This document shows positions 14,460 to 61,380 of a stretch of 64,000 nt of DNA, one piece after another. Location of the stretch: assembly GCF_040183065.1 (NCBI RefSeq), contig NW_027185502.1, positions 3,709,501-3,773,500 on the forward strand. Reading direction: 5' to 3'. The notes beneath the pieces are model-generated. The model saw only the letters and a program-made list of their open reading frames with translations, had not been told where the DNA came from and did no database searches. The stretch's first letter is position 1. Every line of letters starts with the position of its first letter. A program made the translations under genes and the position numbers. Source of the stretch: Periplaneta americana (taxonomy: Eukaryota; Arthropoda; Insecta; Blattodea; Blattidae).

Positions 14460-15887
14460 TTTACTGAGTAACAAATATATTCGGACATTCCTGTTGGTCC
14501 TATTCTGTACACCCCTGTTGATCACTTACATTACACAGTAGGTGGAGTACCGAGTTTCAATAATAAGCGAGAGTACTTAGTCTTACTTGTGCTGTCGTTT
14601 CAGCAAGACGGAACACAAAATGGGGCGTAAAGGTAAGTAAACAACATTTAATCAGAGGCAGTTAGTGATATTCCATCACGAAAAAGGAAAAACCATTCGA
14701 AACATTGCAGATTTACTTCAGATGAATGAGAAGTACAGTGTCTGACATAATTCTCAGATATAAAAACGAGAACAGAATAGAGTTGAGAAAGCAAACAGGT
14801 GGCCGAAAAGTCCTCACAGACAGAGAAGAATCTCTTATTATCAGATTAAAAAGAACCCTCGTATAAGTGCCCCGAAGTTAGCTTCTGAAATTGAATCGGC
14901 TACGGGTAAAAAAGTGCATGACCAAACAATTAGAAGGGTAATACATAAACGGGGCTACAACGGAAGAATAGCACGAAGAAAGCCTTATGTTTGTGAAAGG
15001 AACAGACGTGAACGACTTCAGTTTGCTAAGGAATATGAAAATAAAGGCGAAGATTGGTGGGAAAAGGCTCTTTTTCCTGATGAGAGCAAATTCAATGTTT
15101 TTGGCAGCGATGGTAGACAAATGGTGTGAAGAAAGCCTAAGGAGAAAATGAAAACCAAGAATTTGCGAGCTACTGTTAAACACGGTGGAGGAAATGTGAT
15201 GATATGGGGGTGCATGTCAGCGTCTGGGGTTGGTGAATTGGTGTTCATCGAGGATATCATGAAGAAGGAAGACTATCTACACCTCCTGCAACATAATTTA
15301 GTGAAAAGTGCAGAAAAGCTTGAAATTGAAAAGGAATTTATATTTTACCAGAACAACGATCCCAAGCATGACTCCTATATCGTACAAGAATTTCTGCTCT
15401 ACATATGCCCTAAAGTGCTTCATCCTCCTCCACAATCGCCGGATTTGAACTCTATTGAACATTTATGGGAAGAACTTGACAGGAGGGTTGGATCAAGGCC
15501 TATTTCTTCTAAAGAAGAATGGGTGAAAATTCCTATAGACATAACAAAAAAATTAGTAGACTACATAGCATGCCATGCCGAGTGAAAGAGGTTATTAAAC
15601 AGAAGGGTGGTCCTACAATGTACTAATAATAACGAGCTGGAATAATATTATTTGTTTTCAAAAAGTGTCCGAATATTTTTGTTAGTATTAAAAATCAAAT
15701 GTTTTCCTTTATGTTTTAATAATTAGAAGAAAATTTAGTTAATTGGAATTGTGTTGAAAATGTTTATATGAAATGCGATGCTTTTAGGAAAAAAATAAGA
15801 AAAGCTTATTTTTATATATTTATATGTAAATATATGTCATTGAATTGTTAGTTGACGGATGTCCGAATATTTTTGTTACTCACTGTA
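14460..15887 (+). mobile_element. Tc1-like element with both ends
   Basis: The left end (from 14460) and the reverse complement of the right end (to 15887) share GAGTAACAAA.ATATTCGGACAT, a normal Tc1-type inverted repeat. A TA sits at the right border, as expected for TA targets; the left TA has decayed. A further copy of the terminal sequence, reversed, lies at about 15664-15688 just after the gene, so the right arm carries two copies of the motif. Confidence 0.85.
14622..15624 (+). pseudogene. Tc1 transposase, inactivated
   Basis: Starts at ATG 14622 (MGRKGK), then a stop after six codons. Downstream, 'LVIFHHEKGKTIRNIADLL' is the N-terminal helix-turn-helix; frame shifts follow near 14728 and 14850. 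The frame 14914-15129 holds the first Asp (FPDESKFN), ends at an in-frame TGA, and continues at 15148-15585 to 'QSPDLNSIEHLWEE' with the Glu. In DD34E relatives the second block is QDNDPKH; here it is QNNDPKH, so the catalytic Asp is Asn (codon 15352-15354). The true C-terminus, in another frame, ends near 15624. It is clearly non-functional. Confidence 0.9.
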
Positions 15888-23177: not shown

Positions 23178-24140
23178 AACTTACTTACTTACATATGGCT
23201 TTTAAGGAACCCGAAGGTTCATTGCCGCCCTCACATAAGCCCGCCATCGGTCCCTATCCTGTGCAAGATTAATCCAGTCTCTATCATCATATCCCACCTC
23301 CCTCAAATCCATTTTAATATTATCCTCCCATCTACGTCTCGGCCTCCCTAAAGGTCTTTTTCCCTCCGGTCTCCCAACTAACACTCTATCTGCATTTCTG
23401 GATTCGCCCATACGTGCTACATGCCCTGCCCATCTCAAACGTCTGGATTTAATGTTCCTAATTATGTCAGGTGAAGAATACAATGCGTGCAGTTCTGTGT
23501 TGTGTAACTTTCTCCATTCTCCTGTAACTTCATCCCGCTTAGCCCCAAATATTTTCCTAAGCACCTTATTCTCAAACACCCTTAACCTATGTTCCTCTCT
23601 CAGAGTGAGAGTCCAAGTTTCACAACCATACAGAAGAACCGGTAATATAACTGTTACATAAATTCTAACTTTCAGATTTTTTGACAGCAGACTAGAAGAT
23701 AAAAGCTTCTCAACCGAATAATAACACGCATTTCCCATATTTATTCTGCGTTTAATTTCCTCCCGAGTGTCATTTATATTTGTTACTGTAGCTCCTAGAT
23801 ATTTGAATTTTTCCACCCCTTCGAAGGATAAATCTCCAATTTTTATATTTCCATTTCGTACAATATTCTGGTCACGAGACATAATCATATACTTTGTCTT
23901 TTCGGGATTTACTTCCAAACCGATCGCTTTACTTGCTTCAAGTAAAATTTCCGTGTTTTCCCTAATCGTTTGTGGATTTTCTCCTAACATATTCACGTCA
24001 TCCGCATAGACAAGAAGCTGATGTAACCCGTTCGATTCCAAACCCTGCCTGTTATCCTGAACTTTCCTAATGGCATATTCTAGAGCGAAGTTAAAAAGTA
24101 AAGGTGATAGTGCATCTCTCTGCTTTAGCCCGCAGTGACT
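23178..24140 (-). mobile_element. RTE-like LINE, 5'-truncated copy 1
   Basis: The minus-strand coding part runs without stops from about 24140 to the TGA at 23202. Beyond the stop a very short 3' region ends in a (TAAG)n-type tail, typical of RTE-like LINEs. The 5' end stops abruptly near 24140-24150. A longer, older copy is at 46392-48025. Confidence 0.85.
23202..24140 (-). CDS. LINE reverse transcriptase C-terminal fragment
   Basis: Starts inside the reverse transcriptase ([20 protein letters not shown]), continues through the catalytic YADD block and the '[17 protein letters not shown]' block, then a thumb-like region with '[10 protein letters not shown]', '[10 protein letters not shown]' and '[12 protein letters not shown]', and ends with '[11 protein letters not shown]'. 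There are about 310 residues with no internal stop, so the truncation is recent. There is no start of its own: the first in-frame initiator would be an internal TTG. The endonuclease domain is absent. Confidence 0.85.
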
Positions 24141-24429
24141 GTATATTCTAGACTGATTATACTGCTATGTTCACCCATTTTAATTTGGTGATTTTGTGTG
24201 CCATACTTTTGTTTTGTGTTTTAGTCTAAGCGTGCATTTTTACTCTGTCAAATCTGTTTGTGTTGTGTTTTCCACAAATAACAACATATAAAGTCAATAT
24301 CAAGAGGACATAATAACATACGTGTGCAGTAAAATTCCTATTTTGAAGATTTTTAAGCAAAAAAATTTCAGGTTATGACATGCTTATGTTTGCTTCGTCA
24401 TGTCTGATGCCTGTCAGATTTGTTACTCC

Positions 24430-37440: not shown

Positions 37441-37545
37441 TCCTTATTGTAAAGAAAACGATTCCGTCAATATCGCATCAATTAGGTAAGTACGACATGT
37501 TCATTAAATCTTAACCACAGTACGGCCGAAATCATTAACAAGCAT

Positions 37546-39378
37546 ATGAACGACCCCAAAACCGCAATAGAATTTAAAAAAGCCAAACAGAATATGAAAA
37601 ACATGTCTGATATACGTAAAAAACTGCAACAAGAAGGGATAGTCCATACAAAAGCCGATAAGAATGATGCTGTAGTCCTCATGTCTAAAGATCAATACAT
37701 TGAGAAAACAAAAGAATTCTTTGCCAATAATCACATATCTGAGATCAATACTGATCCTACTGATGTTTATCAGAAACAGTTAAAAACAGCTCTAAAGAAT
37801 TCTCCAAACCTCATTTCAAAGGACTCTATCAATAAATTAATTCAAATTAATCCCCAGGCCCCCTTCTTGAAAGCATTACCTAAAACGCATAAAGCAGAGC
37901 TATCTATCAGACCAATTGTAAACAGTCAAAATGCACCCAATAGAAAAATCAACAAATTCTTACATAGCTTTTTGAAACGTAATCTGATTTTAGATAATAA
38001 ATATAACATTACAAACACAAAACACCTCATCAAAAAACTTGTTAAATTGAAACCAACAAATAAAACTAAATTACTTTCTTTAGACGTTTCTAACCTGTAT
38101 ACAAACATCCCCATTGACGAGACCCTAGATATCATTAAATCCAAACTTGCCGAAGTTCAATTGGAATCAGTTATAATAGACCAAGTAATACATCTTCTCA
38201 AGACTTCTTTGAAACAAAATTATTTTAAGTTTAACAATGCCATATATACACAGAACAAAGGCCTAGCGATGGGCGACCCACTTTCTGGCTTATTAGCTGA
38301 AATTTTTTTGCAAAATTTGGAGAACAACAATGTCCCTGCTCTTTCAAGTAAGTTTAATATTATAGCTTATGTTAGATATGTAGACGACACGTTACTCATA
38401 TACGAGAACGATACAAATATTAGCGACAGCATTACCAACGCTTTCAATCACCTACACTCAAACATAAACTTCACTTCCGAACAAGCCATAAATCGATCTA
38501 TAAACTTTTTACATTTGCACATATTTGTAATGAATTCCAAGATAAGTTTTGATATTTTTAGAAAGCCTACCTCCACAAATCATACCATAAATAAAGAATC
38601 TAATCACCCCGAGACACACAAACTCAGCAAATTCAGATACCTCATTGATAGACTATTAATGGTGCCTTTAAGTAAAAGACGATTCAACAAAGAGCTCACT
38701 TATATCACAGAATTAGCAAGATCTAATGGCTTTAATAAACAAGAAATAAATAAGCTGTTTCAAAAACGGAAAAATAAGTTGCTACACAACCAACACACCA
38801 CACTTTCAGCCATTGAACCCCCTACACCTAAAAAACGAGTCCCTATGACATACTTTGGTAAAGTTTCCAACCAACTTAATAACCTTTTCAAAAAACATGG
38901 CATTGAACTAGCGTTCCGAACAAGTAATAAACTCAATAATATTTTACCCAATAAAATTAACGTAATCGACAAGCATCAGAACAGGGGGATATATATGTTA
39001 CAGTGCAAAAATTGCCCTCACAAATACATAGGACAAACTCGTAGGAATTTTAAAACCAGATTTAATGAACATGTCGCAGATTTCAAATACAACAGGAGGA
39101 AATCAAAATTCGCGACCCACCTTATTGAGAATGGCCACGAATTAACCAATATCAATGAAACATTACGTGTAATTCTCCCTTTAAATAATTGCGCGCATAT
39201 CACTGCAGCAGAAGATTTTCATATAGCCCGGGCATTAAAATTAGGTATTCCTCTCTTAAATGAGCACATTCCAAATTTATATAATCCGTTATTCAATCTG
39301 AACGCACACAGTACACGTGATGGGCTATCAACCTACCACTATACCCCCCCCCCCCTTCCACCATCAGCTGTGACATAG
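37546..39378 (+). CDS. Penelope-like reverse transcriptase with GIY-YIG endonuclease
   Basis: 610 codons with no stop. Motifs in order: RPIVN at 122-126; motif A LLSLDVSNLYTN around Asp180; motif B GLAMGDPLS at 239-247; catalytic YVDD at 278-281; FLHLHI at 321-326. The C-terminal endonuclease has GIY at 481-483, a C-x2-C (487-490), YIG at 494-496, an Arg-rich TRRNFKTRFNEH segment and a Glu at 556. The order RT then GIY-YIG is diagnostic of Penelope-like elements, which reverse-transcribe at a nicked chromosomal site. Known members are often 700-800 residues, so the N-terminus may be short; no better start is open upstream. A run of 13 C at about 39343 lies in frame near the end (Pro-rich tail). 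Confidence 0.9.
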   Translation: MNDPKTAIEFKKAKQNMKNMSDIRKKLQQEGIVHTKADKNDAVVLMSKDQYIEKTKEFFANNHISEINTDPTDVYQKQLKTALKNSPNLISKDSINKLIQINPQAPFLKALPKTHKAELSIRPIVNSQNAPNRKINKFLHSFLKRNLILDNKYNITNTKHLIKKLVKLKPTNKTKLLSLDVSNLYTNIPIDETLDIIKSKLAEVQLESVIIDQVIHLLKTSLKQNYFKFNNAIYTQNKGLAMGDPLSGLLAEIFLQNLENNNVPALSSKFNIIAYVRYVDDTLLIYENDTNISDSITNAFNHLHSNINFTSEQAINRSINFLHLHIFVMNSKISFDIFRKPTSTNHTINKESNHPETHKLSKFRYLIDRLLMVPLSKRRFNKELTYITELARSNGFNKQEINKLFQKRKNKLLHNQHTTLSAIEPPTPKKRVPMTYFGKVSNQLNNLFKKHGIELAFRTSNKLNNILPNKINVIDKHQNRGIYMLQCKNCPHKYIGQTRRNFKTRFNEHVADFKYNRRKSKFATHLIENGHELTNINETLRVILPLNNCAHITAAEDFHIARALKLGIPLLNEHIPNLYNPLFNLNAHSTRDGLSTYHYTPPPLPPSAVT

Positions 39379-48025: not shown

Positions 48026-49187
48026 CACAGTCTGCTATATACCTACAGTCGCGAAGCTTGAGGTGATTTTTTGCAAATCTTGCGATAAAGCGCTCCAAGC
48101 GGTTAGCAACTAGAAACAACAGACTGTCCATGGTCGACTTTGGATTTAGAGTGGACTGAGTCGTATTTCCATCGAGTGCTAGGTCGTTGCGTATTTCGCA
48201 TTGATGCTCCTGAAAAAAAAATCCTAACATCTATTTCTTATTTTACTTCTAGATGCAAAAAGTGGTTAATAAACAGCAGGAGGGAAGATCTAATGACAAA
48301 GAACGAAGCATATCTATATAATAATATAAAGTTTTGCTCTCTTCATTTCGAAAACACACAATTTATGAATGAAAACAAAAATAAATTAATCTGGAATGTT
48401 GTTCCAACTTTATTTGATGTTTCAAATAAACCTGTTCTGTTATTACCTGCAGCTGAGAAACAAAAGCTTTGCACTAATTCTACGTCTATATCAGCTGATT
48501 CCTTGAATAATTGTACATTTTCAGACAACTTAGGCCTACTTTTTTTTTCAAAGGATATGTTTTTAATTATAGCTGTTAATTTTGTTGTTATTTTTATTTG
48601 TTACTTTACTAGAGACGTAGAAATAGTAAGTCTGTTACAATAAAATTTATTGATCACGTTTTATTTCCAATTCTGGTGTGATTATTATTGCTTAACCTCA
48701 TCCCACTTCGTTAACTACGTAAGCCTACACTACAAGTACCGGTACACGTAAGTTACTCCCATTAATTCATATTTCCATTATTGTTATTATATTACTGTTG
48801 TAAAGGGAAATGCAAATTAATATTTATTGGTTTCATAGTTCATTATCGCTATAATCTCGAATGAGTGAAGCGATTATAGTAAATTTCAGTTCGTTTTGCA
48901 CAAACAAAAATAATATTAACCTATTTCTTGCAGGTATCGAGTTTATGGTGGAATTTAATATACTTCATTAAAATAATAAATTAACTTTATGCATTTAATA
49001 TTTCAATAATGGAAGGAAGGTGTTAATTTTTACAAAAGAACACGGCAACGAAAGTGTAACATATTTTGTCATCTGCTAGGAGAGATCTGTGATGATGAGG
49101 CGATAATAGCGATCCTAGTGGTGCGCAACTACCCATGTTTGCATTTTTACTACATATTGAGCTTCGCGACTGTATATAGTAGACTGT
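48026..49187 (+). mobile_element. THAP-encoding P-like DNA element with TSD
   Basis: The left end CACAGTCTGCTATATA and the reversed right end CACAGTCTACTATATA continue with ACAGTCGCGAAGCT on both sides (3 extra bases on the left). The flanks AATATCAC (48018-48025) and GATATCAC (49188-49195) form an 8-bp duplication with one mismatch. The interior encodes a THAP domain. The 8-bp TSD plus THAP points to the P superfamily, but the terminal sequence is not that of the Drosophila P element. Confidence 0.85.
48140..48643 (+). CDS. THAP-domain protein, partial
   Basis: 167 codons. Residues about 38-95 contain the second half of a THAP zinc finger: 'RCKKWLINSRREDL' with the conserved Trp, the C-x2-H pair (FCSLHF), and 'NVVPTLF' in place of AVPTLF. 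The first C-x2-4-C pair is not in this frame. A pyrimidine-rich stretch ends in TTCTAG at 48252, exactly before the codons for 'CKKW', and looks like a 3' splice site, so the true upstream exon may be missing and the frame's 5' part non-coding. AATAAA (48639-48644) overlaps the stop. No catalytic domain follows; a hydrophobic segment (LIIAVNFVVIFICYF) is odd for a DNA-binding protein. Confidence 0.7.
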   Translation: MDLEWTESYFHRVLGRCVFRIDAPEKKILTSISYFTSRCKKWLINSRREDLMTKNEAYLYNNIKFCSLHFENTQFMNENKNKLIWNVVPTLFDVSNKPVLLLPAAEKQKLCTNSTSISADSLNNCTFSDNLGLLFFSKDMFLIIAVNFVVIFICYFTRDVEIVSLLQ

Positions 49188-51704: not shown

Positions 51705-53070
51705 TAGTGATGGGTAGTTCGCGAACGATTAGTTCGAATTGAACTAATCGTTCAAGTGAACTAGATGAACTAGTTCGAAATTGAACTAGATGAACTAGTT
51801 CGAAATTTTTATGAAAGTCGTTCACTAACTAGATGAGTCGTATCTGTGGAAGTCGTTCGCGAACTAGATAGAGAAGAAGCAATGCATTGTGGGAAGCCGT
51901 TCCCATAACGAGAGGAGTGTTGGGCCGTGTTTCACAACACGCTAATAATATTACTTCTTTAGACCCATAAAGATACTAAATTCGGTGTTTCATGAACATT
52001 ATGCACAACTTATAAAATGCGGACACTAATACTGTATTATAGTTCATTACCCAGCGGATTCTGTTTGAGGTTAAGAGCACATGAACATGAGTGGTTCAGT
52101 CTGGTTACGTTGTGTTTGTATCCTTCGTAGCCAATATTAAGAAATGGTTTGAGGTTAAGTCTGACAAGCATTAAGCGATATGCCCCTTTATAAAATTGTA
52201 TTACAATATCGAATCTGTTATCTGTTTCACTATTTCACGTTCACTATAATGCTCTCCACATTAGGCTACATCCGCAAATACATTATTTACTTGTATTTAA
52301 TTTATTGAAGTAAATAGTACGATTCAGGATTTAAGCATTGCAACACACATTCTTAATTTCTGCACTCAGCATCGCTACCAGTTACGTACATTTTCCTTTA
52401 AATGTTAAATGAAATTCTCTTTAAAAGTAAAGTAACTGTAATAGTTTAGATCGATACTGTGTACGAATAATTAGCATGTTCGAACTCTACCACTGCACTA
52501 GAGTCCCGAATTCGCAACTCGAAACTTCATGTTGAACACAAGCCAATGAATGGATTTTCATGTCCTAAATTTCATTCGATCTATTTTTCGAATGTAATAT
52601 CTGTCATATAGAGTATCCTCGCTTCATCGGCGCCGTTAGCTAGTCTATATTATTTTGGGAGGGAGGCGGATATTAGAAACTAAAGTATAATTGAAATCTT
52701 TAAGACTACATACAGTTTAAGTGCGTTATTTATTTAAATCAGTACTGTTGATTGCGTAATACAATATATGTTATTAAACACATGTAAACAGATTAATAAT
52801 AAAAATTAATATTAATAGTAATAATTATAATAATGAACAATTAGACCAAATATGGGGGGACACGCTCTCTTTGTGCCCCTATTGATAACGGCGCATGATA
52901 GATGTGATGAAGGAGCATATTTTTAAGATGCTTTTAATGAGACACTCCATCTGTTCCTCTGCTGACAATAACATTTTGTTCAATTGTATGTTATTTTTTG
53001 TGCGGTCTCCCAAATGTGTATGTCTGAAGAGAGATTTTTATTTTATTTTCTGCTTTTATTATTATTATTA

Positions 53071-53143
<73 letters not shown>

Positions 53144-53690
53144 GGAATTTGAGAGTTGGGTTTAGATTATACAGTTTACAGTTCTATAATATTTCTTTTC
53201 TTTCAAGCTTTCATTTTACCGTAGTTTTAATCATACAATCAACGTTTGCAACGTTGATACTGCATTGCTGTTACTTTCTCTCAAAAAAGAAATGTTGTAA
53301 TAAATAAACACTGACCTACAGTAAGTAATGTAACATCGTATTTCCCTAAAATCAGTTATTCTTTAAGAGCAAACAGTTACAGCATGAGTATATATATTTC
53401 TCAAAGTTAAAATAATACTGATTTTCTGATTGCATCTTTGCATCAGCTTTCCTCTCCATCTTACGCGAACTAAATGAACTAATCGTACTAAATGTTTAAC
53501 TGCATCAGCTTTTCTCAAGCGAACTAAGCGAACTAAATGATTATATACGTCAGTTTTTCTCAGACGAACTAAATGAACTAAACGAACTAGGCCTAGATGA
53601 ACTAAGCGAACTAGATTATTGAACTAATCTCACTATCGAACTAGTTCGCCGCGAACGAATTTGTAAATTGAACTGAATTTCCCATCACTA
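51705..53690. mobile_element. 1986-bp non-autonomous hAT element
   Basis: Starts TAGTGATGGG and ends CCCATCACTA, perfect 10-bp inverted ends, followed by subterminal arrays of GAACTA/TAGTTC words. TSD CTGACGGC (51697-51704) and CTGACGAC (53691-53698), one mismatch. The interior holds no transposase frame, only AT-rich sequence and a (TTA)n tract. Confidence 0.95.
53057..53142. repeat. (TTA)n microsatellite
   Basis: About 28 units inside the hAT element. Confidence 0.95.
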
Positions 53691-54462
53691 CTGACGACCA
53701 CTGCTGTAAACTATCCACAACGACTGTGAAAAGGACAGGACTTATACCCCTTACACTCTGTATTGATATTTTAGAACCAAGCATTCTAATTCTTCTCTTC
53801 ACTGTTTAAGTGGAAATAGCCTATGAGATAATATTGGGTAGCGCGATATTATGAAACAACCATATTAATGTTCGCGTGCAGTGTATATATACATGACACA
53901 TTACACACAGGCTCGATTGACATAGACTAACAAAATCGCAAAGCAAGGAGTAGAACTCTTCTAAAAAAAACCGACTAAACGTGAAGACTTCATATGACGA
54001 ATGTAATGCAGATATGCGGAAAGTTTTAAAATCATAATTGTTGTTTTTGTATAACATTGCTCGACGTAGCCTACATTTTGACAGCGAAAGGTTAATATCG
54101 AACAGCAGCAAAACTTGCTTTCATGATTATCTTTTTAAAATACTTCCTCATAATATTGTCGTGAGATTTCTTATGATTAGGAGTTTATATCCCGTAGTGC
54201 TCATCTGCCCTGAACCTTGGGGAAGTTAGAGGTGGTGTTTAGAGGGGTGTGAGGCTAACTTCGGAGCAAGCGGCTAGCTAACGGTACTTTTGGTGTGAAT
54301 GCACTCTGCTTAATCCCCTTTCTACTTTCTTCAAAAAAATATTTCTCTCTTTCCAGTTGTACTTGGAAGACGGAAGTGAACGTTTGCTTAATAGAATTGC
54401 TGCTGTAAATATATATTCAAAGTTAAGACGTAGCAATATAACTTTCGTGTATAGTGTTTGCG

Positions 54463-54465
54463 TAG

Positions 54466-54536
<71 letters not shown>
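54463..54536. repeat. (TA)n microsatellite
   Basis: About 37 TA units, giving isoleucine/tyrosine artefact frames on both strands. Confidence 0.95.
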
Positions 54537-54540
<4 letters not shown>

Positions 54541-54791
54541 CTAAGTGTATATAGTACAATAAGTGTATATAGTAGAATGATTTCGTGCGTTTGTGTGTAT
54601 ATATAGAGACTAAATATATATAACAACTCTTATAGAATAATTCCCTGCGATAGACAAAGTGTAGCTATACAGTAATTCTTACAGAATAATTTCGTACGTA
54701 TGTTCGTGTGTATATAGAGACTGAGTGCATTTCTAAGCTGACCTGTACATAGCAACTACATTTATTAACTTAAACTTGAGTGTGCCTCATC

Positions 54792-55871
54792 ATGCCGCCT
54801 CCTAAGAAAAAGAAAGTAATTCATTCCCAAGCACGTGAAATAATAGAGAAAGTGATAGCAACGTGTGATAACGAAGCCAAGAACAAGAGTCTGACGCATT
54901 TGGTTACTCAGGCACTAAACACGCGGCATATTGCACTGGTGTGTCTGAATTTGCGGCAAAACACATTAGAAAAGAAAATTTGGAAAGAAACCGAGATCGC
55001 CCCAATGAAGTTCTCTCGACTCCTGGAAAAAAACGACCAACTCGGCCACAGCATACGCGTGTTGATGTGTGTTATTAAAAATACTATCCACGACTTTTAT
55101 ATTCAAGAAAAGAAAGTGCCAACTGTGAGCAAGCTCTTGCCTGCAATTAGAAATAAAATTAATTTTCCATGGAGTAGGGTCACTAAACAGACTGTTGAAC
55201 ATGGTGAACTACAAATGGAAAAAATTCTAGTTGAAAGGGCTTATATTGTTGCTTGGCGACATAATTATTTGAGGAAAATGGAAGAATTCCGTAATCAAGG
55301 GAGAGAAATTGTATATCTCGACGAGACTAGGATGGACAGCAACCTAACTTTTGAGAAATGTTGGCAACATTCTGATGAGTTCGGCCTACAGGCAAACCAT
55401 AGTGCAGGAAACAGACTGATCGTCCTACATGCGGGTAGCAAAAATGGTTCCTTGAGAAACGCAGAACTCGTTTATAAAGCTGGTTCTGCGAGCGGGGATT
55501 ACCACGGGCAGATGAACCAGGTAAATTTCGAGAAATGGGTTGATGAGAAATTAATTCCCAATCTTCCGCCAAGGTCAGTCGTGGTCATGGACAATGCCCC
55601 CTATCACTCCGTTCAGGTTGGTAAGGCTCCAAATAAGTACGCGCCAAACAGAGACATGATAGAGTGGCTGAGAAGAAAAGGAATTGAAGTCAGTGAAAAA
55701 ATTCACAAAGTCGACCTTTTCTCCTTAATCGAGAAACACAGGTCTCAAGAAAAGACTTTTAGGGTTGACCGAAGGCTGGTGGAGTTCGGACACAACGTAC
55801 TGAGACTTCCTCCTTATATGTGTGACTTATCCCCGATCGAATTAGCATGGAAAAAGATGAAAATAACGTGA
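54792..55871 (+). CDS. Sailor transposase (DD82E), C-terminally truncated
   Basis: The start is taken at the ATG of MPPPKKKK (54792), which opens with a basic nuclear-localisation-like run; an upstream ATG at 54780 adds four residues. 359 codons. Catalytic residues: Asp177 in YLDETRMD, Asp267 in VVMDNAPYH, Glu350 in SPIELAWK. Exactly 82 residues separate Asp267 and Glu350, the spacing that defines the Sailor group of IS630/Tc1/mariner elements. A single-base frameshift at about 55860 ends the frame nine residues after the Glu. Coding continues in another frame ('LSLQRLKELTEMALSSI') to a premature TAA at 55958. In a third frame comes an acidic Ser/Asp tail ending at 56142. Confidence 0.9.
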   Translation: MPPPKKKKVIHSQAREIIEKVIATCDNEAKNKSLTHLVTQALNTRHIALVCLNLRQNTLEKKIWKETEIAPMKFSRLLEKNDQLGHSIRVLMCVIKNTIHDFYIQEKKVPTVSKLLPAIRNKINFPWSRVTKQTVEHGELQMEKILVERAYIVAWRHNYLRKMEEFRNQGREIVYLDETRMDSNLTFEKCWQHSDEFGLQANHSAGNRLIVLHAGSKNGSLRNAELVYKAGSASGDYHGQMNQVNFEKWVDEKLIPNLPPRSVVVMDNAPYHSVQVGKAPNKYAPNRDMIEWLRRKGIEVSEKIHKVDLFSLIEKHRSQEKTFRVDRRLVEFGHNVLRLPPYMCDLSPIELAWKKMKIT

Positions 55872-56142
55872 CAGGAGATTTATCTTTGCAAAGATTAAAG
55901 GAACTTACAGAAATGGCTTTATCGTCAATAACTAAAGAGGACTGGGAGGGTTATTGTTAACATACGTTAAAAGTGGAGAGCCAATACAGATTTCGACATA
56001 ATACATTGCCTGCAATCTAATTATTTCTTTGGATAGTGACAGTGATAGTGATAGCGATAGTGATGATAGCAGCAGTAGGAGCAGCAGTAATGATGATGAT
56101 GATGATGATGAAAGTGATTCAGAATTGGCTACTCCATTGTAA
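55862..56142 (+). pseudogene. Sailor transposase C-terminal tail, out of frame
   Basis: The remaining C-terminus lies in two shifted frames. The last piece encodes a run of alternating Ser and Asp followed by a poly-Asp stretch (56032-56120), then ESDSELATPL and a stop at 56140-56142. Acidic serine-rich tails occur in related transposases. The microsatellite-like (GATAGT)n and (GAT)n make it unstable. Confidence 0.75.
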
Positions 56143-57171
56143 CGCGGAGCAGAATTGGTAAGTCATTGTTTTTATAACGCATGCTACATTGTATTTCTAA
56201 CTTTCTCTCCATCCACTACTAGTGCGAAACTGCTACCCCAACTCCGCATTCCTGCCAGGGCAGATGAGCTGAGTCATCGACTTCTTAAGTGCACAATACC
56301 GGAGCAGGCGTGTGGTAATTGCGTAGAAGACGCCACACAGTGGTCCGAATCGCTTAAAACCCGGACAAAAGTAATAACTTCTTTTCTAGTGCCCAAATTA
56401 ACTTGAAATTTGGTACACTTATTACTAATAACATGTATCTAACATGTGCAAATTTTAATGTAATTTGGAAATGAATAACTATCCCTCTTGAGGGGTGAGA
56501 TAATTAGGCGTTCATTAATAAGGGCCAAATTAGATATTTTTATCACAAAACTCGATAAATGCAATAATTATAGTCATGTTATGTACACGATTTCATCAGC
56601 AACCCCTAATATAAGGGTTGAAAAGTTACATAAGTTATGTAATCCACAAGTTCAAAATTATATATAACCTGTATAAGTTATAATCGAAATTCAATTAAGG
56701 ATTGTATTTTTGTGAGTGAGTACATTCTTACATTTAGTAACATAAATAATCCATTAATATTTTCGTAGTTTTGTAGGGGTATCCAAAATGTTACGTACCA
56801 TTTAATACTACTGGTAATATAACTTGTATGAACTTGCACTCTTGTAAATTTCATTATATTATTGTGCTAAATTATACTAGAATATCTACATTTTTATACA
56901 TTTTGTTATTAAGTTTATGGCTAAGCAGAAATAAAGTATGCATTTTGATACTTACAAAGGTGTTGAGCATTTGCATCTGAGAAGTGTGCCTTGGATGCAC
57001 TGAGTAGTTTCATTGTTGTAAATGCAGACAAGTTGAAATACAGAACTGTTTGAAGGTCGCAATTCAAACACCAATCAATCAATAAATCAATCTTCTTAAT
57101 GTATCCAGCTGTTTGCTGACAACAAAGTCCACTATAGTCCACTGTAGTATATTCAGTTGTTGTTTTCATGA

Positions 57172-57370
57172 GAAATGAGGGGTATTTGATCTTTGTTCAT
57201 TGTGGATTCCTGTTCCTAGTAGCCAGAGGTGGGGTGTAGTCAATATAGACTGCAGGACTGTGTCTTCTGCAACTGGTACTGATGATTTTAATTTACTTCT
57301 TTTGTGGTTTATGGATGGACAGTCTAGAAGAATGTGTTCCAGATCTTCATCATGATTATTACACCAAGAG
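57172..57370 (-). pseudogene. LINE C-terminal fragment inside the Transib-like element
   Basis: The minus strand reads 'SWCNNHDEDLEHILLDCPSI', a C...H...C zinc-like block of I/R1/Jockey-group ORF2, then 'LTTPHLWLLGTGI' and a stop. It is a short 3' coding piece carried within the element. A 100-residue plus-strand frame at 57282 partly overlaps and is unrecognised. Confidence 0.55.
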
Positions 57371-57379
57371 TGAATCGAA

Positions 57380-58800
57380 TTTGAAAAAGGAAGACAAAAT
57401 ATTCTTACATGATAAAGTAAAGAATTTCAAGAGGAACTTAGATCTCCAGCCTGTCACTCGTCCCCGCAAGCTGACGTTTCAAATTCGTCGTCTTCTTCCC
57501 CCTTCTCTTCTTCGGATATTGCCAAAAGACCAAGCACTTCCGAAGATACATTTAATTTTTATTTTCTTTTGGTGGTTTATTTAAACTGGAAATTAATGGG
57601 TCAGAAGTCAACATTAATCTGCTAAAGAGGTCTAAATTGTCGTCTCGTTTTGAAATTCTTCGAATAAAACTTTCTCGAAATGTTGTCACATCTTAGTTTC
57701 TAGACTCAGCGGCATCTTCTAATAATTCTGCAACCGATAAAGTAACTGAGCTGCCGGCACAATTACAGACCCGTGCAGGGCTGCTTGGGTGGCCTATTGA
57801 CATTTTGAAGAATGCCTGTACTTGCTATCATTGATAACACTTTTCAGAAGAATAAGAAGAAGTAGAAGAAATGTCTGTAAATGGCAACTAAATTTCTTGT
57901 TATAATCAGTCTGAATTTTTTACGAAGATACGTGGTTTCGTTACGGTGACTAATTTTGTTCTAACGCTGATAATATTGAAGAAAAAACCACATTCTTATT
58001 ACACTTTCTAGTGACTTTGTGCTATGGCTGTCCAAATTTAATTCAAATTTATTCTCATATTCTTTATGTTGCACAAGAATCTTATTACCCTTTCCTTTAA
58101 TTTTCTCCTAAATTTCTTCGCAACTGACACGTAAATTCATTTTTACACATTACATTATGCACACATTATACAATGACCTGATATCAACAAAAGTCCTCTG
58201 AATATGGAAAAAATTAAGGGCCTTTGTTGTTTACTTCCAACAAATCACTCCTCAGTCTTTAAGTAATCAAACATAACTCTCGGTAAGTGCGTGTGGCTCG
58301 ACACGTGTAGACGGATCAGGCGCACAGGTATGATTCAGAGGTCATAATTCGCAGAGTTGCAGGGTTTTGCAGATGAAACCTTCAGTGACAAACTTATAAA
58401 TGTCTACCAAGATATATTACGTAAGTTTCACAGTGTACACTGGTGAACATTTTTTTAAAACACTAAAACAATTTTGTCTTTTGCCCAAAACAAGAACAAT
58501 AGAAACTTGATTTATTATCAGTACTTAGAAACAAAAAATACTGAAAACTGTAATTGTTCCTAATACATAAGACCGTAACACATTTACAAAAAATATACTT
58601 AGCATTTTACTTTTCATAATTAAGGCAGACACAATGTTCAGAAATCACTTATAAAAATGCAGAATTAATCAGGAAAGATTTGTGTCACTTTTGCCCGTAA
58701 GTATTGACCAGAACCTTTGAAGTATTCTTCGAAAAACACTTGGTCTTATTAGAATGACTATTGAGGATTATTACTGAGGTAATTTTGTCTTTTTAATATG
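57380..58800. other. Interior of Transib-like element, unrecognised
   Basis: A serine-rich stretch can be read at about 57420-57560 (plus) but it breaks up quickly. I see no RAG1-like or Transib block. Confidence 0.45.
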
Positions 58801-58911
58801 AAGTTCGAAAAATGACTTTTGTCCGGCTTTTTAGCGATCCGGACCACTGTGCGCCAGCTGTTCACATGTGCCACTTTTGGACTACTCTCAAATATCGTAG
58901 GCATTATTGTT

Positions 58912-59166
58912 TTTTTTATTACTGGGTTATTTTACGACGCTGTATCAACATCTCAGTTTATTTAGCATCTGAATGAAATGAAGGTGATAATGCCGGTGAA
59001 ATGAGTCCGGGTTCCAGCACCGAAAGTTACCCAGCATTTGCTCGTATTGGGTTGAGGGAAAACCTCGGAAAAATCTCAACTAGGTAACTTGCCCCGACCG
59101 GGATTCGAACCCGGGCCACCTGGTTTCGCGACCAGAAGCGCTGACCGTTAGTCCACAGGTGTGGAC
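58912..59166 (-). mobile_element. SINE family A with perfect TSD
   Basis: On the minus strand the complete head (TCCACACCTGTGGACTAACGG), B box GGTTCGAATCCC and full body. A 12-bp perfect TSD GGCATTATTGTT at 58900-58911 and 59167-59178. Confidence 0.95.
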
Positions 59167-59184
59167 GGCATTATTGTTAACTCT

Positions 59185-59745
59185 GACAATTTTATCTATG
59201 TCTGTTATGCATTATGTTGGTTTTTGACGGTTCAGGAATAATACTGTATAGAAGGGTTATGGCGAAGGTATCTTGGGGGCAGCGGAGGCTTGCCCCAGCT
59301 ACAAGCCCCCGGCTATATCCTAAATGCAATGAATATCGTCTTTGCAGGTAGAGGAAGCATATATAGGCCTATAGATAATATGTGTTTTAGTGCTAGATAA
59401 TGTCATTTTAGTGCTCACCTTGTATCTAATTCACGTCTTCATTCGTACTTTTGAATTGTTGATGTGATGTCTTGTAGTAATAAACACTATTAACATTAAC
59501 CTATACGGATATCGTTCGTAAAATTGAAGTGGGTACACTGCACTGACGGTTCACTGCTCTCTGTTTACTGTTGATTTCACTCAAAGCTGGTTAACTGCGT
59601 CGTGTTGAGGGAACGTCTGCTTAAACCCTGTTTCAATGCTCGGAATTAACATCGCTGTTGATGCCATCTAGTGTGGGGTTTCTATTACTGAAGGTGTATT
59701 TATGTAGGAGATTTAGAGCAGGGTTGGGCAGAATTATGCACTCTG
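59185..59745. other. No gene; possible hAT ends
   Basis: CAGCGGAGGCTTGCCCC near 59280 and CAGGGTTGGGCAGAATTATG near 59718 resemble hAT termini, but partners were not found. Confidence 0.4.
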
Positions 59746-59754
59746 TGCTTGCAC

Positions 59755-59935
59755 CACAGTCTACTATATACAGTCAAGAAGCTTGAGTTTTGAGGTGCTA
59801 GAAACAATAGACTGTGACGGTACTATTTTGCATTGCCTGTAATGAGGCGATATTAGCGATCCTAGTGGTGAGCAACTATTTAATGTTTGCATATTTACTA
59901 CGTATTGAGCTTCGCGACTGTATATACTAGACTGT
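59755..59935. mobile_element. 181-bp MITE sharing ends with the THAP element
   Basis: The ends CACAGTCTACTATATACAGTC and, reversed, CACAGTCTAGTATATACAGTC match those of 48026-49187. A perfect 8-bp TSD GCTTGCAC (59747-59754 and 59936-59943) flanks it. Internal blocks (AGGCGAT.TTAGCGATCCTAG) match the right arm of the larger element at 49095. Confidence 0.95.
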
Positions 59936-59944
59936 GCTTGCACG

Positions 59945-61380
59945 GTGAAGGCCCTACTACGAGAGGAGTGTGCTTATATAGTGCACGAAAACCGGTTTAT
60001 TCAAGTTGCGTACGTACTGCATGTTTCAAAAGAAAATGTTATTCTACCAAACTGAATAAGAACACAAAGTAATGAAACACTTCCCTAAACACAAAACAAA
60101 ACATGTCTGTTGCACATTAATTCATATTACTCAATTTCTCAAGATTTGGAGAAACTGTATTAGCACAAGCTATGCGGAGAACTGCCGTTAAAGCCGTCAT
60201 TTCTTGTTTGAGATTTGTTTAGTTTCGTAATAGAAAATCACTGTTCACATCTGTAAGTGGAACCAAATAAACACAAAGCATTCTCACACAGCTTATGCAG
60301 TCCGCAAGCAATGATACGCATTTATTTATTTAAAATAACAACACAGTATGTAAAGAAATCAACTCATAAAAAGTATGTTTTTTTTATTTTGCATTATGTG
60401 ATTATGTTTAGTTTTTAGGGCTTCATGTTACCTATTATTTGCAATGTATTAGGTACTGGTAGACTACTTTTTATAATTGATAGCATTCCCTTTATTAATT
60501 GAAGAATGACTTATAAATGCAATGTAATTTGGCTACCTTTGCGCATTATATTTTGCGTGGTTACTTATGTCTTGTGGTCTAAAAGTACCGGTAAAATAAT
60601 TTTCGATTCTCTAAAACTTAACAACAGGTCTATACTGATTATCACATATTTATTTCACTTAAGAATTTGATTATAATAAGAACTTGTGTAATCAAGGTGC
60701 ATGTATTTACGTCTTGTGATCTAAGAGTAATGTATGTTAATATAATTTTTGATTCTCTGAAACCTAACAATATGCTGATTAATGTAAAATTATGCATTCT
60801 GTAATGTGTATTGTGTAGGCCTATTTATGGACGTATGAGCATGTTTTCTATCAATCGCTGCCTACGTATTTTCTTTCCTCTAATGCTCTGACCCACATCA
60901 ATGAAACTTTGAATATATTTGTTTTGTCCTAATTTTACATTAAACGTCGAAAATGGCCATAATCTATCAATTTTAGATCATCACGGCGTTAAATTGTGTG
61001 ATTTACGTACTGCTATTATGCGTCTGCTCTTCATCATCATGGCGGCAAGCGCAGCGTTCAATTTGTCCCGGTTTCCTTGTTCCGCGCACCCGAGACTGTA
61101 GGGACTTGACTTAAACTAATCTGTTGTCAAGCATTTCATATTACTTCCGTTGTGTGAAGTGAAGCCTTCAGTGGAATGAGGGATGGACTTCAGAATCTAT
61201 TCCAAACTACAAAACTCAAACTTCACTGTCATTCACTTATTCAGTAGGTAATTACTACTGACCCATTTGCTTAGAAAATGAATTAACAGACCTATCGGCA
61301 AAGAAGAAATTAAAATGCATTCCAAACAGTGGCGTGTGGTGATAAATAATCCTGGTGGTGCACAAATATTTATTGTGATT
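59945..61380. other. No gene recognised
   Basis: Only frames of about 60 residues without motifs. AT-rich with a slightly GC-richer patch at 61020-61100. Confidence 0.45.

Follow-up and report, generated by a model that had tools for sequence, protein, structure and literature searches.

A decayed, non-autonomous Transib transposon with RSS-like ends and CGNCG-targeting relatives in Periplaneta americana

Introduction

The enzyme responsible for shuffling the antibody genes of vertebrates has a known relative in insects, Transib. A DNA transposon whose ends open with the heptamer of the RSS on which that enzyme acts therefore raises two questions, i.e., to which superfamily it belongs and what has become of the transposase that moved it. 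Such an element occurs in a stretch of 64,000 nucleotides of the genome of the cockroach Periplaneta americana (contig NW_027185502.1, positions 3,709,501 to 3,773,500), which is referred to here as the window. An initial annotation, made from the letters of the window only, had assigned the element to Transib on the basis of its ends and the short duplication flanking it. Here we examine this assignment using the relatives of the element in the genome, the sites in which they are inserted and the transposase encoded by one of them.

The element in the window

Direct reading of the letters places the element at 56336–58851, flanked on both sides by a perfect target site duplication (TSD), CGCCA, at 56331–56335 on the left and 58852–58856 on the right. 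The terminal inverted repeats (TIRs) are 40 bp long and identical at 36 of the 40 positions; the left one (56336–56375, plus strand) reads CACAGTGG from 56336 onwards and the right end at 58851 is its mirror image (58812–58851, minus strand). Both open with the heptamer-like CACAGTG (56336–56342 and, reverse-complemented, 58845–58851), which is followed, after a spacer of 22 bases at each end, by ACAAAAGT (56365–56372 and, reverse-complemented, 58815–58822). The initial annotation had described CACAGTG at both ends, the second motif 22 bases further on and a perfect CGCCA duplication, and all of these read as it stated. An 86-codon open frame within the element (57169–57426, minus strand) resembles the zinc-knuckle tail of a non-LTR reverse transcriptase, with a weak match that falls short of the cut-off (zf-RVT, E 0.046).

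The window holds several other features of interest. A short element-like stretch at 59755–59936 has inverted arms of 29 bp that are 90% complementary and enclose 124 nt. A 630-aa open frame (37486–39375, plus strand) combines a reverse transcriptase with a GIY-YIG domain, which is the layout of Penelope-like elements. Further frames encode a reverse transcriptase of 320 aa (23205–24164, minus strand; RVT_1, E 3e-14), a DDE_3 transposase fragment of 151 aa (15130–15582, plus strand) and a THAP domain (48107–48640, plus strand; 178 aa, E 3e-8).

The family in the genome and its target sites

The genome searched comprised 3.23 Gb in 91 contigs, the window being part of contig C21. A DNA search in which 40 of 2,203 candidates were scored listed at least 102 matches to the window element. 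The pattern of the end, defined over 35 places and allowing at most 3 mismatches, was found 141 times in forward and 136 times in reverse orientation (277 genome matches), against none in either orientation (0 + 0) for the control, the same pattern read backwards. The 277 matches would correspond to a number of elements of approximately half that figure.

We examined 62 loci, i.e., 8 obtained by DNA search, 32 further ones, 20 obtained through a search with the 254-aa frame discussed below, and loci L061 and L062. With a limit of 12 mismatches for calling an end, 51 of the 62 possess one end on each side; the other 11 lack one or both under this limit and yielded no TSD. Eight of the 51 two-ended loci were duplicates of the same places, leaving 43 places, and these were reduced to 30 independent insertions by treating places as one when their flanks aligned on one side or on both. 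A perfect 5-bp TSD is present in 27 of these 30 insertions and in 25 of the 27 it is CGNCG, a motif that occurs at 80 of the 63,996 positions of the window. The two perfect exceptions are AGCCG and the CGCCA of the window copy, the latter differing from CGNCG at one base. The three imperfect duplications are CGTCG/CGTTG, CGGCG/CGGAG and TAACA/CGATG; two of them deviate by one base and one (L023) is unlike on its two sides. Perfect duplications of 3, 4, 6, 7, or 8 bp were encountered in none of the 30 insertions. Looser merging, for which flanks had to align on both sides, gave a perfect 5-bp TSD in 30 of 33 insertions, 28 of them CGNCG. The tabulation of TSD lengths recommended in the initial annotation thus yields 5 bp in every perfect case.

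Truncated relatives

Many shorter relatives (2.8 kb; e.g., L036) bear a frame of 254 aa, the end of which matches the transposase of HzTransib (E 2.6e-8). Compared with L036, the window copy is 93% identical over its left 1,000 bp but only 80% over its right 1,000 bp; the right part of L036 is 91% identical to L062. Judged from these identities, the 2.8-kb type (L036, 1045–3852, and others) appears to have arisen by recombination, its left part being of the window type and its right part of the L061/L062 type.

KP of the P element is a shortened transposase that acts as a transposition repressor. The 2.8-kb elements might similarly make a shortened, N-terminal transposase of ~254 aa that represses transposition, in which case the window copy would belong to a regulated set. 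In favor of this, 17 of the best 25 matches are free of stops, all 25 being 92–100% identical over the 254 residues. However, one frame that is open in many copies also fits recent spread, and the changes that the copies have accumulated do not deviate from neutral expectation. In 17 of the 20 copies fetched (three with indels were left out), the changes confined to one copy number 91, of which 24 are synonymous vs. 21.7 expected (p 0.62), and 8 stops were counted vs. 5.2 expected (p 0.25). A count over 13 copies, one with an indel included, agrees with this (23 of 93 synonymous, 19.9 expected, mean dN/dS 0.74). The N-terminal frame decays neutrally and a role as repressor is, therefore, without support; we consider it very unlikely.

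A related transposase and its remnants in the window

The genome search with the 254-aa frame of the 2.8-kb relatives led to L061, where an element of 2,888 bp (98–2985) is flanked by the TSD CGACG and its ends differ from the family end at 2 and 8 of 37 positions. It contains two frames, of 171 and 524 aa, which overlap in different registers, so that its coding sequence is frame-broken. The transposase frames matched no Pfam family above the cut-off and the link with Transib was, therefore, drawn from solved structures; the Pfam RAG1 profile (PF12940) had no match in the genome, in a search in which no positive control matched either. The 524-aa frame is homologous to the transposase of HzTransib from Helicoverpa zea (PDB 6PQN and five further entries) over most of the solved chain, with E 5.2e-133 over residues 25–480 of the 524. 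In the alignment, its residues D127, D229, and E439 stand opposite positions 109, 208, and 419 of the 6pqn chain, which at a constant offset of 17 are D126, D225, and E436 of HzTransib, the catalytic acidic residues of that enzyme (PMC6941560); all three acidic residues are thus present in L061. A second copy of the L061 lineage, L062, is 93% identical to L061 over 2,265 aligned bases; one end was seen, with 3 mismatches, and its frames are broken in several places. None of the 62 loci examined combines these ends with an intact transposase frame.

The two longest among the copies examined, L021 (4,219 bp) and L037 (4,369 bp), were considered as candidate autonomous elements. Neither holds a full transposase frame, and L037 contains a reverse transcriptase frame.

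An alternative classification is that of a RAG-like (RAGL or ProtoRAG) transposon with RAG1L and RAG2L genes, since RAGL elements also have ends starting with CAC and 5-bp TSDs (PMC7204232). However, the L061 transposase is not closer to RAG1: HzTransib was the only distinct PDB sequence retrieved at E ≤ 1 with the 524-aa frame, and no RAG1 chain was among the matches. In addition, the transposase frames span ~2.0 of the 2.9 kb of L061 and, in a survey of its open frames from 60 aa upwards, no other frame exceeded 115 aa, so that, with RAG2 judged by frame length, no linked RAG2-like gene was seen within L061. The end consensus reported for protostome RAGL is also unlike the ends found here (PMC7204232). 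A RAGL origin is, consequently, very improbable. The superfamily that the initial annotation had inferred is borne out by L061, since this relative, which combines matching ends and a CGACG TSD with a HzTransib-like transposase, encodes a Transib enzyme, albeit frame-broken, and not that of another superfamily.

The frames of L061, used in a tblastn search against the window element, revealed two decayed remnants of this Transib transposase, both on the minus strand and both with stops. The N-terminal remnant (57919–58143) corresponds to residues 1–79 of the N-terminal frame of L061 (53% identity, E 6e-17). The C-terminal remnant (57451–57752; residues 424–523 of the L061 frame, E 4e-18) consists of two linked pieces, 57564–57752 (60%) and 57451–57552 (62%), and retains an E at the place of the third catalytic residue. 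This search recovered no match in the window element to the middle of the transposase, which bears the first two catalytic residues. The earlier statement that no transposase lies inside the element, therefore, holds for an intact gene but has to be abandoned for remnants. The window copy is a decayed, shortened, and non-autonomous Transib copy.

A separate group of 19 loci (G000; e.g., C6:41664606, C10:47987032, and C1:167167639) carries frames of 512–519 aa that are 44–46% identical to the L061 transposase. Internal stops are absent in 17 of the 19 loci and the scores are nearly equal. On the evidence of these sequences, the group is probably a young, perhaps still active, Transib family of its own.

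The larger repeat and the empty sites

Eight places, the window included, have common flanks (L001–L004, L006, L007, L015, and L016), and L005, in which one end was not found, has the flanks of the window copy too. The flanks shared by L001–L007, L015, and L016, therefore, indicate one insertion that was copied together with its surroundings. The stretch 53000–61000 of the window belongs to a larger genomic repeat in which the element sits, all 8 kb being common to six loci besides the window at 96–97% identity (35 of 10,476 candidates scored). With the same scoring (35 of 10,476), 15 other loci were found in which the element is absent and the right flank adjoins sequence that matches the final 52 bases of the left one. 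According to the coordinates, the two flank alignments overlap at these loci by exactly 5 bases in 7 of the 15 and by 4 bases in the other 8. Such an arrangement fits what would be expected of a pre-insertion site with a single copy of the 5-bp target, here CGCCA. The left 2.1 kb adjoining the 52 bases is unaligned in all 15 empty-site paralogues, which indicates another insertion or a replacement at that position. A 362-aa frame with a DDE_3 endonuclease domain (54783–55871, plus strand; E 8e-11) is located within this unaligned part.

That the structure is composite or accidental, its ends belonging to another superfamily and its 5-bp TSD being a coincidence, could be argued for a single copy, where short TSDs may match by chance, but is so improbable that it can be set aside in view of the TSD length and motif that are fixed family-wide, the 15 empty-site alignments, and the Transib remnants inside the element.

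Comparison with known systems

The consensus RSS of vertebrates is CACAGTG-N12/23-ACAAAAACC (PMC9723617). The heptamer of the cockroach element is identical to it; ACAAAAGT has the first six bases of ACAAAAACC and departs from it after ACAAAA, and the spacer has one base fewer than the longer RSS spacer of 23. In contrast to the 12/23 RSS of vertebrate RAG1/2, both spacers are 22 bp, there is no 12/23 asymmetry, and no RAG2 gene was seen. Equal spacers had already been described in the initial annotation and are confirmed here at 22 bp; they are quite ordinary, since symmetric spacers of 20–22 bp have been documented for Transib ends (PMC8355894). For some Transibs, heptamers and nonamers identical to those of the RSS have been reported (PMC8355894; PMC6941560). 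A reading of the present ends as a bridge to the RSS is improbable. Over 31 aligned ends, the spacer is conserved in its first half as strongly as the heptamer, which is not predicted by an RSS reading. CACAGTG with GG after it made a poor signal in a RAG assay (PMC9723617); in the present ends, GT follows. RAG1/2 in vitro uses a 5-bp GC-rich target (PMC11844651, a preprint).

HzTransib has been described as a 3.5-kb element with TIRs, one deduced protein, and a 5-bp TSD, GCTCG (PMC1852546). It is a lepidopteran element; the cockroach transposase is diverged, and the window copy has decayed and derives by deletion. The hopper and transib2 elements of Drosophila melanogaster, also of the Transib superfamily, share the modal 5-bp TSD and have palindromic targets, GC-rich for hopper, although their target motif is CCANTGG rather than CGNCG (PMC3276498). 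The CGNCG target itself has been reported for a Transib of Trichoplusia ni in baculovirus genomes, i.e., for another host (PMC4735498; PMC5704228). With the homologous DDE transposase of its relative L061, the 5-bp TSD, CGNCG preference, and RSS-like TIRs that start with CAC and have a symmetric spacer, the element is an ordinary member of Transib and was correctly classified in the initial annotation. In a limited search of the literature on Transib in Periplaneta and on cockroach transposable elements, no description of this family was found, PMC12230796 offering a mention in its reference list only.

Conclusions

The window element is almost certainly an internally deleted and non-autonomous representative of the Transib superfamily of cut-and-paste DNA transposons. 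The ends, the 5-bp duplications, the CGNCG preference, the alignments consistent with empty sites, the transposase of L061 with its three acidic residues, and the remnants in the window are all shown by the sequences. By analogy with the published work on HzTransib, the transposase, a relative of the RAG1 core that survives here in remnants, would recognize and bind the two ends of 37–40 bp and may cut at CAC through nick-hairpin chemistry. The excised DNA would then be inserted into a CGNCG-like site with a stagger of 5 bp, giving rise to the duplication. The window copy was presumably moved by a transposase made elsewhere, and it would have been inserted once into the larger repeat and subsequently multiplied passively with it.

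The picture of the origin of RAG is unchanged by these results, because Transib, its RSS-like ends, the spacers of 20–22 bp, the 5-bp TSDs, and the CGNCG target have all been published before (PMC8355894; PMC1852546; PMC3276498; PMC4735498; PMC5704228). Our results do illustrate that a guess made from the ends and the TSD in a single window can prove right, and they add to the Transib set a new family with a heptamer identical to that of the RSS and a strict CGNCG target.
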